A stretch of DNA of 64,000 bases from Brachybacterium huguangmaarense (GTDB lineage: Bacteria > Actinomycetota > Actinomycetes > Actinomycetales > Dermabacteraceae): NCBI RefSeq assembly GCF_025725725.1, contig NZ_CP107020.1:1054001-1118000 (forward strand), in the 5' to 3' direction. The notes under the pieces were generated by a model that did no database searches, was not told the origin of the DNA, and worked only from the letters and a program-made list of their open reading frames with translations. Position 1 is the first letter of the stretch. Each line of letters starts with the position of its first letter. Made by a program: the position numbers and the translations under genes. This document shows, piece after piece, positions 20,996 through 24,390 of this stretch.

Positions 20996-21014
20996 CTAGT
21001 ACGCTCGGTATCAG
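20996..21014. promoter_or_regulatory. Candidate fatty-acid operator 1 (copy upstream of thiolase)
   Basis: The 19 bp CTAGTACGCTCGGTATCAG contain an interrupted dyad CTNNTAC-N5-GTANNAG. The same motif, with 16 of 19 positions identical, occurs upstream of fadB at 24287-24305. It ends 31 bp before the thiolase start and follows TAATAC (20978-20983). It is likely an operator or a shared promoter core for the beta-oxidation genes. Confidence 0.6.
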
Positions 21015-21045
21015 GAACCTGAAGGATCGCATCCAGGAGGCAGAG

Positions 21046-22263
21046 TTGCCCGAGGCCGTCATTGTCGCCGCCGTCCGTTCGCCCATCGGCCGCGCCCGCA
21101 AGGGATCGCTCGCCTCGATCCGCCCGGACGAGCTCGCCGCGCAGACCGTCCGGGCCGCCCTCGACCGGGTGCCCGCCCTCGACCCGCGCGAGATCGACGA
21201 CCTGCAGCTCGGCTGCGCGATCCCCGAGGGACACCAGGGAGGCAACCTCGCGCGCACGGTCGCGGTGCGGCTCGGGCTCGACACCGTGCCGGGCGCGACC
21301 GTGACCCGCTTCTGCGCGTCGAGCCTCGAGACCACCCGCTCCGCCTTCCACGCGATCCGCGCCGGCGAGGCCGACGTGATCGTCTCCGCGGGCGTCGAGT
21401 CGATCAGCTTCTCGAGCGGGCGGCTGCTCGACGACGACGCCCGCGACCCGTACTTCGCCGAGGCGATGGAGCGCACCGAGCGCCGCGCCCACGAGCTCGA
21501 ACCCACCCCGTGGCACGACCCGCGCGACGACGGCCGCGTGCCCGATCCGTACATCGTCATGGGGCAGACCGCCGAGAACGTCGCCGAGGTGCGGCAGGTG
21601 TCGCGCGCGGCCCAGGACGAGTACGCCGTGCGGTCCCAGAACCGTGCCGAGAAGGCCGTCGCGAGCGGCTTCTTCGACCGCGAGATCGTCCCCATCACCC
21701 TGCCCGACGGCCGCGTCGTCGTCACCGACGACTCCCCGCGCGCCGGCGTCACCCTCGAGGCGGTCTCCGCGCTCCAGCCCGCCTTCCGCGAGCACGGCAC
21801 CGTCACCGCGGGCAACTGCTGCCCGCTCTCGGACGGCGCCGCGGCGCTCGTGATCATGTCCGACGAGCGCGCCGAGACGCTCGGCGTGCCACCGCTCGCC
21901 CGCATCGTCGCGACCGGGGTGAGCGCCCTGAGCCCCGAGATTATGGGGCTCGGGCCGGTCGAGGCGACCCGTCGGGCCCTCGCGCGCGCCCACCTCACGA
22001 TGGCCGACATCGATCTGGTCGAGCTCAACGAGGCGTTCGCCGCCCAGGTGATCCCGAGCGCCGAGGACCTCGACATCCCGCTCGACAAGCTCAACGTGCA
22101 CGGCGGCGCGATCGCGCTCGGCCACCCGTGGGGGTCGACCGGCGCGCGCATGATCACCACGCTCCTGAACGGCCTGCGCTCGCGCGACCAGCACGTGGGT
22201 CTCGCGACCCTGTGCGTCGGCGGCGGGCAGGGCATGGCCCTCATCGTCGAGAGGATGAACTGA
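21046..22263 (+). CDS. fadA: Acetyl-CoA acetyltransferase / 3-ketoacyl-CoA thiolase
   Basis: It cleaves 3-ketoacyl-CoA with CoA to acetyl-CoA and a shortened acyl-CoA, the last step of beta-oxidation; condensation is the reverse reaction. The 405-residue length is normal. Nucleophile Cys90 lies in TRFCASSLETTR. The C-terminal histidine is in GGAIALGHPWGSTGARM and the second catalytic cysteine in LCVGGGQGMALIVE. The start is TTG, with CCAGGAGG 5 nt before it. The acyl-CoA dehydrogenase gene begins at its last base (TGATG). The upstream dyad suggests co-regulation with fadB. Confidence 0.95.
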   Translation: MPEAVIVAAVRSPIGRARKGSLASIRPDELAAQTVRAALDRVPALDPREIDDLQLGCAIPEGHQGGNLARTVAVRLGLDTVPGATVTRFCASSLETTRSAFHAIRAGEADVIVSAGVESISFSSGRLLDDDARDPYFAEAMERTERRAHELEPTPWHDPRDDGRVPDPYIVMGQTAENVAEVRQVSRAAQDEYAVRSQNRAEKAVASGFFDREIVPITLPDGRVVVTDDSPRAGVTLEAVSALQPAFREHGTVTAGNCCPLSDGAAALVIMSDERAETLGVPPLARIVATGVSALSPEIMGLGPVEATRRALARAHLTMADIDLVELNEAFAAQVIPSAEDLDIPLDKLNVHGGAIALGHPWGSTGARMITTLLNGLRSRDQHVGLATLCVGGGQGMALIVERMN

Positions 22264-23555
22264 TGACCGACCAGAGAGAGCCGACAGACCCGACGGAGCC
22301 GGCAAGGTCGACTGAACGCACGGCGCCGCCGGCCCCGGGGCTGCGCCCCGACGCCACGACCGGCGCCGAGCTGCTGGACCCGACCGCCGACTTCTACGCC
22401 CTGTTCGCGGACGTGACGGGGGAGGACCTCGAGGCCTGGCGCGCCGCGCGCTCGCTCGCCCCCGAGATCCTGCCGCGCCTCAACGACTGCTGGGACGCGG
22501 CGGAATACCCGACGGACCTGCTCGTCCGGCTCGGCGAGCTGGACCTGCTGACCGACGGCCTCGAGATCCCGGGGCACCGCTCGCTGTCGCCGCTGGGGGC
22601 CGGGCTCGTGAACATGGAGATGAGCCGCATCGACGGCTCCGTGGGCACGATGATCGGCGTGCAGGGCGGCCTCGCGCTGCGCTCGATCGTGCTGCTGGGC
22701 TCGCCCGAGCAGCGGGAGCGGTGGACCGAGCCGCTCGTGACCGGGCGCGAGCTCGGCGCCTTCGCGCTCACCGAGCCCGACCACGGATCGGACTCCGTCT
22801 CGCTCGAGACGCGCGCACGGCGCGAGGGCGACGAGTGGGTGCTCAGCGGCCAGAAGCGCTGGATCGGCAACGGCGTGAACGGGGACGTGACCGTGGTCTG
22901 GGCGCGCGTCGAGGACCCGTCCGACGAGATGCTCGACGGCCAGGTGTCGGGCTTCGTGGTCGAGCAGGAGCGGGAGGGGTACGAGGCCGAGGTGATCCGC
23001 GGCAAGGTGTCGCTGCGCGCGATCCACCAGGCGCACATCCGCCTGCACGACGTGCGCGTGCCCCCCGGGGCGCGACTGCCCGGGGCGCGCTCGTTCAAGG
23101 ACACCTCGACCGTGCTGCATGCGACCCGCGCAGGCGTGGCCTGGGGCGCGCTCGGGCACGCCGTCGCGTGCTACGAGGCGGCGCTCGAGCGTGCCCGCAC
23201 CCGGATCCAGTTCGGCCGCCCCCTCGCCAAGGCCCAGCACGTGCAGGTGCGCCTCGCGACGATGCTGCAGACGGTGACCGCGATGGCCCTCTACTGCAGG
23301 CGGCTCGCCGAGCTCGAGGCGGCGGGCGCGCTCACCCCCGAGCAGGCGTCGCTCGCCAAGGTGCACAACACGCGCGGCGCCCGCGCGGTCGCCGCCGATG
23401 CGCGCGACCTGCTGGGCGGCAGCGGGATCCTGCTCGAGAACCACGTGGTGCGCCACATGGCCGACATCGAGGCGCTGCACACCTACGAGGGCACCGACAC
23501 GATGCAGTCCCTCATCGTCGGCCGCCGGGTGACGGGCGTCGGCGCCTTCGTGTGA
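22263..23555 (+). CDS. Acyl-CoA dehydrogenase, glutaryl-CoA dehydrogenase-like
   Basis: A 430-residue FAD enzyme that introduces a 2,3-double bond into acyl-CoA, the first step of beta-oxidation. After a 40-residue Pro/Thr-rich extension come the three ACAD regions. They include GAFALTEPDHGSDSVSLET (FAD/substrate loop), GRPLAKAQHVQVRLA and the catalytic glutamate in HTYEGTDTMQSLIVGR. That last pattern, and GSVGTMIGVQGGLA earlier, resemble the glutaryl-CoA/plant ACX4 subgroup rather than medium-chain enzymes. It is coupled to the thiolase. Confidence 0.92.
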   Translation: MTDQREPTDPTEPARSTERTAPPAPGLRPDATTGAELLDPTADFYALFADVTGEDLEAWRAARSLAPEILPRLNDCWDAAEYPTDLLVRLGELDLLTDGLEIPGHRSLSPLGAGLVNMEMSRIDGSVGTMIGVQGGLALRSIVLLGSPEQRERWTEPLVTGRELGAFALTEPDHGSDSVSLETRARREGDEWVLSGQKRWIGNGVNGDVTVVWARVEDPSDEMLDGQVSGFVVEQEREGYEAEVIRGKVSLRAIHQAHIRLHDVRVPPGARLPGARSFKDTSTVLHATRAGVAWGALGHAVACYEAALERARTRIQFGRPLAKAQHVQVRLATMLQTVTAMALYCRRLAELEAAGALTPEQASLAKVHNTRGARAVAADARDLLGGSGILLENHVVRHMADIEALHTYEGTDTMQSLIVGRRVTGVGAFV

Positions 23556-23580
23556 CGGGGAGCCCGCAGTCCCGGAGCCT

Positions 23581-24039
23581 TCAGTCCCGAGGGCCCAGGC
23601 GCTGCTCGTCGTCCGGTTCCTGGTCGCGCTGAGCGGCCAGGGCGCGGGCGCGCGCGACCTGGCGGGCCTGGTCCCAGCGCAGCAGGCCGAACAGCAGCAC
23701 CGCCGCGCCGACCACCACCGCCGCGGATTCCACGGGGGTGCGGATGTCGGGGAGCACGCTCAGCAGCACGACGACGAGCAGGACCATGAAGCCCAGCGCG
23801 ACGAGCTGCGGGAGCGAGCGTTCGAGGCCGATGCCCGCGTAGTGAGTCCGTACGCCCCCGTCGACCACGATCACGGCGATGAGCAGCACCGCGAAGCCGA
23901 TCGCCGTGCCGGCGAGCCCGAGCGGGAACGCCCCGATGAGGATGCCGACGGCCCCGGCGCCGAGCAGCGCCTCCAGCAGGGTCCACGGCCAGGGCACGTC
24001 CCGCGGCTCGCGTGCGATCGGTGACCAGGGATGCGTCAT
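23581..24039 (-). CDS. Small membrane protein, function unknown
   Basis: A 152-residue protein with four predicted membrane helices (about residues 23-42, 46-62, 80-98 and 104-120), short loops and a charged C-terminal tail ending DQEPDDEQRLGPRD. CTGGAGGT lies 5 nt before the ATG. It sits between the thiolase/ACAD unit and fadB but on the opposite strand, so a role in fatty-acid metabolism is not implied. No family is recognised. Confidence 0.75.
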   Translation of the reverse strand: MTHPWSPIAREPRDVPWPWTLLEALLGAGAVGILIGAFPLGLAGTAIGFAVLLIAVIVVDGGVRTHYAGIGLERSLPQLVALGFMVLLVVVLLSVLPDIRTPVESAAVVVGAAVLLFGLLRWDQARQVARARALAAQRDQEPDDEQRLGPRD

Positions 24040-24390
24040 GGTCCACCTCCAGCTCGACTCCTTCCACCCTAGCCATCGAGCGTGGTCGGCGGCGGGGATG
24101 GGGATCTCCAGGACACGCCCCTCGGGTACGGCCGCCCGCCGGCCCCGATCAGACGGCGCGCCGCACCTCGACGCGGCCGCTCGCGGCCCTCACCAGGACA
24201 CACCCCCACGGTCCACCCGCCCGCACGGCCCCGACTGCTCCACGAAGGGTCGCTTGCCCCGCCCGCCTCCCTGCGGCACCATGTACCTAGAACTCCCGGT
24301 ATCAGACAATGGGCCCCGTCCGCGCACGCTCGTGCGGCCCGGTCCGTCGCCCCGGGACGAGTCGACGACGACCAGGAAGGCGCCCCCGCC
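24040..24390. other. 351-bp intergenic region upstream of fadB
   Basis: The gap separates two divergent genes. The left part should hold the promoter of the small membrane protein gene, but no convincing box was seen. The right part holds the second copy of the fad dyad (24287-24305). I see no RNA gene or further ORF with a ribosome site here. Confidence 0.5.
24287..24305. promoter_or_regulatory. Candidate fatty-acid operator 2 (copy upstream of fadB)
   Basis: The 19 bp CTAGAACTCCCGGTATCAG match the site upstream of the thiolase at 16 of 19 positions and keep the outer dyad CT...AC-N5-GT...AG. The site ends 85 bp before the fadB ATG. A shared site in front of two separately transcribed beta-oxidation units is best explained by one regulator acting on both. 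Confidence 0.6.

Follow-up and report, generated by a model that had tools for sequence, protein, structure and literature searches.

Transcription factors of the TetR family bind as dimers to palindromes of about 19 bp, and several of them govern lipid genes. FadR of Bacillus represses β-oxidation and is released by acyl-CoA, and both it and DesT of Pseudomonas recognize operators that differ in sequence from the one described here. Dispersed fad operons are placed under a single regulator by FadR of Escherichia coli, although the latter belongs to the GntR family and differs in its operator as well as in its protein family. The nearest relative of known structure to the candidate regulator discussed below is FasR of Mycobacterium tuberculosis (PDB codes: 6O6N, 6O6O and 6O6P), a TetR-family protein that is reported to bind inverted repeats, and whose contact with DNA is disrupted by acyl-CoAs with chains of C16 or longer (PMC7382501). 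MadR (Rv0472c), a mycobacterial TetR repressor whose binding is reported to be relieved by saturated acyl-CoA (PMC8872791), differs in its targets, desA1 and desA2. Here, we analyse a 64-kb stretch of the 3.26-Mb genome of Brachybacterium huguangmaarense (G000:C1:1054001-1118000; 74% GC; hereafter, the window), in which two 19-bp sites stand before β-oxidation genes, one upstream of the thiolase–acyl-CoA dehydrogenase (ACAD) operon and one upstream of fadB. These sites are very probably functional operators, and the regulator that recognizes them is most likely the TetR-family protein encoded at G000:C1:108995-109609, ~965 kb from the fad sites.

Two putative operators before the fad genes

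Operators 1 and 2 (Table 1) agree at 16 of their 19 positions, and the dyad CTnnnAC-N5-GTnnnAG is present in both; on these points, and on the location of the sites, the letters bear out a preliminary description of the stretch. The thiolase start codon (TTG, 21046) lies 31 bp past the end of operator 1, and that of fadB (ATG, 24391) 85 bp past the end of operator 2. When up to three mismatches are permitted, the pattern CTAGNACNCNCGGTATCAG matches the 64-kb window at these two sites only, whereas shuffled versions of the window gave a mean of 0.24 matches and reached two in 1 of 100 shuffles, a figure that is weak when taken alone, as the pattern was derived from the two sites themselves. The pattern CTNNNACNNNCGGTATCAG, likewise built from them, occurs without mismatch at exactly two places in the whole genome, namely, operators 1 and 2, in keeping with the earlier claim that the sites lie only upstream of thiolase–ACAD and fadB. 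At up to two mismatches, it gives 27 matches genome-wide, against 91 for the reversed control pattern, and because the total falls below that of the control, we regard the inexact matches as background.

A matrix was also built from the sites of relatives only: in a scan of 329 kb of B. huguangmaarense DNA, in partly overlapping pieces, operators 1 and 2 rank first and second (25.8 and 21.8 bits, respectively; next, 18.2 bits), and none of 20 million 19-mers drawn from a Markov model reached 21.8 bits. In a cross-check, the matrix from one promoter set was used to score the other set, own sites being excluded, and 29 regions upstream of an unrelated gene served as the control set. Scores of 13.4 bits or more were obtained with the fadB-trained matrix in 26 of the 30 thiolase upstream regions and in 1 of the 29 controls, this single control being the DUF3073 region of B. 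huguangmaarense, with its chance hit. With the thiolase-trained matrix, 28 of 30 fadB upstream regions scored 13.6 bits or more (the failures being G017 and G016), as did none of the 29 controls (maximum 13.2), although this test is not fully independent, as the thiolase training sites were found with a fadB-like seed.

The chance hit just mentioned, CGGAAACCGTCGGTACCAC (18 bits; G000:C1:~244262; L202, 4262-4280), was considered as a third target, as it precedes a gene that we take to be DUF3073-like. It is probably fortuitous, and was not kept: the next best of the 28 other upstream regions scored 10.1 bits, and chance alone would give 1.3 such sites. This gene stands opposite a BldC-like gene (both names were assigned by eye).

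Conservation of the operator

Of the 47 genomes of the family, 42 gave a FadB match, that of G040 being weak and partial. Within the genus (own genome included), a recognizable operator adjoins fadB in 35 of 38 genomes (27 of 29 loci, together with 8 of 9 other genomes assessed by coordinates), and in those 27 loci, it lies within ~140 bp of the fadB start (estimated in L055-L057). The thiolase gene has an operator before it in 37 of 38 genomes (30 of 30 loci, together with G006, G015, G023, G024, G027, G031 and G035; the gene start of G027 was extrapolated), and G026, a draft assembly that is 88% complete, gave no thiolase match. The motif is, therefore, not absent from the fad promoters of close relatives. 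Nor does it stand before unrelated genes at chance frequency, which had been the other way in which the preliminary description might have failed: at up to two mismatches, CTGAAACCNNCGGTATCAG matches 31 of the 47 family genomes, against two control hits in total, and only four of its places (in G006, G016, G028 and G036) are, by coordinates, away from fadB or thiolase.

The genus consensus of the fadB operator is CTGAAACC(C/G)NCGGTATCAG, an imperfect 9-1-9 palindrome that can be written roughly as CTGAWACCS-N-SGGTWTCAG. The sites of B. huguangmaarense deviate from it, and indeed are too divergent for its own genome to yield any match to CTGAAACCNNCGGTATCAG at up to two mismatches. In G017, an exception among the fadB loci, fadB directly follows the ACAD gene, and the thiolase operator may serve both thiolase–ACAD and fadB. 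In the exceptional G016, an intact operator and promoter lie ~1.5 kb from fadB, with a transposase-like open reading frame (ORF), presumably of IS110 type, in between (L208, G016:C1:3264000-3276000, 5818-7038). A second thiolase–ACAD copy is seen in L191 (G022:C1:2605000-2620000; 7876-11880), with a stop codon within the thiolase gene and an intact operator of its own, separated from the thiolase by an ORF that resembles a transposase by eye.

Beyond the genus, G043, from a neighbouring genus, has the site at both the fadB and thiolase promoters. In an order-wide sample of 347 genomes, CTGAWACCNNCGGTWTCAG at up to one mismatch was found in 20, of which 14 belong to the genus and 6 do not; in its strong form, the fad operator is thus essentially limited to the genus. 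Among the six outside hits, only that in G274 is near fad or TetR query genes (1.5 kb on either side was examined). Further hits at one or two mismatches in relatives and across the order (L198-L201, L207, L209 and L210) were set aside; six of the seven inspected places lie inside predicted ORFs.

The candidate regulator

The candidate TetR carries a TetR_N helix–turn–helix domain (PF00440; 41.8 bits, cut-off 24), one of 23 TetR_N matches in its genome, 22 of which exceed the cut-off. Its gene is divergent from a thiolase–reductase–dehydratase operon, for which NCBIfam gives acetyl-CoA acetyltransferase and 3-oxoacyl-ACP reductase above cut-off, the MaoC assignment having been made by eye; we take these genes to be fadA2 and fabG4, in an arrangement that presumably corresponds to Rv0241c-Rv0244c. 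Among the 23 TetR_N genes, it is the one whose upstream region scores highest on the fad matrix (11.0 bits; next, 9.4), but the lead is small, and ~66 sites of 11.0 bits are expected genome-wide by chance. Since the site in its own gap is, thus, weak on the fad matrix and not significant genome-wide, the assignment rests on conservation. The TetR is present in 42 of the 47 family genomes, and the five that lack it are exactly the five without a FadB hit, although this co-occurrence reflects few independent losses (two genera).

A regulator encoded beside the fad genes was sought with a hidden Markov model of the genome's own TetR N-termini (positive control, 23 of 23), and none was found; the filtered ORFs searched, 574 in all, came from 12 relatives (20 stretches surrounding thiolase and fadB) and from 36 kb of the window; the thiolase–fadB interval was incompletely covered where the genes lie far apart, and the filter left no ORF of G042. 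When 3017 six-frame segments were searched without the filter, a single borderline match emerged (E 0.0099, L188). By eye, the only regulator-like genes noticed in the window were one of LacI type (29566-30639) and one of ArsR type (39961-40350). The suggestion, made in the preliminary description, of one TetR-like repressor encoded elsewhere is supported by this distant TetR, with its related putative operator in the divergent gap.

That gap contains CATAGAACCGTGGGTACTTGGTACTCTAGGTTTCGTG, which comprises two overlapping sites 16 bp apart, and the double-site arrangement, as judged by the junction, recurs in all 30 genus loci. In 27 of these, the core ACY-N3-RGT is intact at both sites; it is intact at one site in two loci (G015 and G019) and at neither in one (G022). 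A further 20 TetR loci were picked from the better hits, 4 in other genera of the family and 16 outside it, and 15 of them have the divergent TetR/fadA2-fabG4 layout (all 4 of the former and 11 of the latter). The core is present in 13 of these 15 gaps, compared with 66 of 604 in a control set of 150-bp pieces, and some of the gaps contain near-perfect palindromes or forms of the fad consensus, e.g. CTGGTACCCACGGTATCAG. The hit in G274, which belongs to another family, was retrieved independently through the operator CTGATACCGACGGTAGCAG, and it is situated in the same tetR/fadA2 gap.

A profile of 17 orthologues of this TetR, when compared with the PDB, finds FasR as its nearest match (6O6N/6O6P; E 9.1e-27), with weaker matches to the TetR-family lipid regulators FadR of Bacillus (1VI0 and 3WHB) and DesT of Pseudomonas (3LSJ). 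The likeness does not extend to gene context: FasR activates fatty-acid synthesis (fas-acpS), whereas the neighbours of the candidate are fadA2-fabG4-MaoC. Placement in the FasR subfamily is not supported, since FasR is matched better by two other TetRs of the genome in single-sequence searches and the candidate's neighbours are not genes of fatty-acid synthesis. No functional study of this TetR, its operator or its target set was found among the matches listed from the open-licence literature.

Several observations weigh against the assignment of the fad sites to this protein, or against the regulon as a whole. Four of the 30 thiolase upstream regions score 6.0-10.4 on the fadB matrix, within the range of the controls, and the fadB site of G024 is a degenerate trace of 10.1 bits. 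G042 and G044 both have fadB and the TetR, yet neither has an operator at fadB, and G044 also lacks one at thiolase (for G042, only fadB was examined); in G040, the TetR and fadA2-fabG4 are present, but FadB is represented by a weak hit only and thiolase gave no match. In the TetR gap, the outer arm reads ..ACTTG / TTG.., as opposed to ..ATCAG in the fad sites, and scores as high as the lowest of the TetR gaps (9.3) are seen in 2 of the 29 control regions. In L249 and L250, two of the 15 fadA2 gaps, the double site is replaced by a larger inverted repeat, CGATACCCAGCGTAC...GTATCG, possibly a changed operator. The core also occurs upstream of three of the five TetR homologues located away from fadA2, and therefore, on its own, it is no marker of fadA2 linkage; it may follow a wider TetR group. 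The unlinked homologues in question are L252, L255 and L260, the arms being more GTTAC-like in L255 and L260, and they are perhaps sister regulators with a related operator. Finally, as a single sequence, the B. huguangmaarense TetR matches FasR only at 6e-4.

Some of these points would be accommodated if the fad sites were operators of another regulator, for example, one of the two most FasR-like TetRs (L148 and L149) or a factor outside the TetR family, and the fadA2-linked TetR had a look-alike site. The differing outer arm and the weak score of its own gap site would then be expected, and against the FasR structures, L148 and L149 give E values of 3.3e-19 and 1e-19, respectively, better than the single-sequence match of the candidate. 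However, the regions upstream of L148 and L149 contain no operator-like site (2.6 and 3.1 bits), it is the gap of the fadA2-linked TetR that keeps its double site in every genus locus compared, and the gap sites of some other families are closer to the fadB consensus than are those of B. huguangmaarense. We, therefore, consider a different regulator unlikely, and the fadA2-linked TetR remains the preferred candidate.

Promoter geometry

A TGGACA-N17/18-CATGAT-like promoter precedes the fadB operator in 24 of 26 genus relatives, with the operator beginning 4 nt after the −10-like hexamer in 23 of the 26, and 12 nt after it in one. The thiolase promoters follow two designs: five genomes, including that of B. 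huguangmaarense, have a TGGACG-N17-CACAAT-like pair with the operator 12 nt later, and most of the other 25 have a CTTCCC-like box (20 genomes). The operator is retained across both. In B. huguangmaarense itself, the thiolase promoter was placed by eye through alignment to TGGACG-N17-CACAAT/CACACT, which four relatives have at the corresponding position, and the fadB promoter by analogy with the pair seen in the genus; operator 1 would begin 12 nt after the former −10, and operator 2 4 nt after the latter. A strict sigma-70 scan of the region gave no promoter match, and the promoters described here are deduced from conservation. The placement of the operators relative to them would suit a repressor.

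The missing sigma-70 match would also be explained if the shared sequence were itself a promoter element, such as an extended −10 or an alternative-sigma promoter. Indeed, TAGTAT falls within the right half of the operator in 24 of 30 thiolase sites, and it fits the actinobacterial −10 rule. Nevertheless, a separate −35/−10-like pair stands at fixed spacing before the site in 24 of 26 fadB promoters, as does another, 12 nt upstream of it, in five thiolase promoters; moreover, the site is palindromic, and its sequence is kept while the promoter-like boxes around it vary. A promoter element is, thus, very improbable. Chance resemblance, or recent duplication of one upstream stretch, might account for a pattern with only two exact copies in the genome, but is very unlikely, as the flanks differ, each site is separately conserved across the genus, and a matrix from one set of sites finds the other.

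Features of the locus

The FadB-like fusion has near full-length matches throughout the genus, some in two pieces. An NCBIfam search gave no match for the small protein encoded between the two operons. In two relatives, a gene that looks ArsR-like by eye is found close to fadB (L172, 6446-6853; L190, 6413-6850), and it resembles that at 39961-40350 of the window.

Table 1. Putative operators, promoters and genes at the fad locus (window coordinates)
Feature	Position	Strand	Remarks
Operator 1 (putative), CTAGTACGCTCGGTATCAG	20996-21014	+	before thiolase–ACAD operon
Operator 2 (putative), CTAGAACTCCCGGTATCAG	24287-24305	+	before fadB
Inferred thiolase promoter	20955..20983	+	−35 TGGACG (20955-20960), 17-bp spacer, −10 AATACT (20978-20983)
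Inferred fadB promoter	24254..24282	+	−35 TTGCCC (24254-24259), 17-bp spacer, −10 CACCAT (24277-24282)
Acetyl-CoA acyltransferase (thiolase), TTG start	21046..22263	+	NF005890, 682 bits, cut-off 580
Acyl-CoA dehydrogenase (ACAD), in thiolase operon	22263..23555	+	best model FadE-type, E 5.6e-92, under model cut-off
Small protein between thiolase–ACAD and fadB	23581..24039	-	membrane-type by eye; outside regulon
FadB-like enoyl-CoA hydratase/3-hydroxyacyl-CoA dehydrogenase fusion, 667 aa	24391..26393	+	FadB/FadJ models to E 1.3e-100, under cut-offs
LacI-type gene	29566-30639		noticed by eye
ArsR-type gene	39961-40350		by eye; ~13.6 kb downstream of fadB

Proposed mechanism and biological function

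Operator sites precede three β-oxidation operons: fadB, thiolase–ACAD and fadA2-fabG4-MaoC. Judged from sequence comparison, operators 1 and 2 are likely to be bound by one TetR-family homodimer, the product of the candidate gene, acting as an acyl-CoA-released repressor of β-oxidation. In the ligand-free state, the dimer would sit over the transcription start of fadB and of thiolase–ACAD, and would likewise cover the starts of fadA2-fabG4-MaoC and of its own gene, where it would block RNA polymerase. Long-chain acyl-CoA arising from the uptake of fatty acids would release the protein, and the whole β-oxidation set would presumably be switched on together. We infer binding, repression (as distinct from activation) and an acyl-CoA ligand; repression in the unliganded state and release by long-chain acyl-CoA are proposed because the TetR profile is nearest to FasR, whose DNA binding is disrupted by acyl-CoAs. 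The predicted regulon is small, comprising fadB, thiolase–ACAD, fadA2-fabG4-MaoC and tetR itself.

The control of fatty-acid metabolism in Brachybacterium seems to have been little studied, as no paper was recognized by title or abstract among the literature matches listed. The system described here would appear to be a TetR-type fatty-acid regulon of a known kind, whose regulator can, on the comparative evidence, be named with fair confidence, such that what began as a motif becomes a putative regulon that has a specific candidate protein and a defined operator, and that makes a clear prediction. Additionally, the related sites in the tetR-fadA2 gap of several families offer a lead on this TetR group as a whole. 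On balance, we lean slightly towards the view that, among actinobacteria, the fadA2-linked TetR is widespread as a fatty-acid repressor, that its local target (fadA2-fabG4-MaoC and its own gene) is the old one, and that one branch of the family has extended its reach to fadB and thiolase–ACAD by gaining the operator at further promoters. If so, the growth of a regulon would be readable genome by genome.

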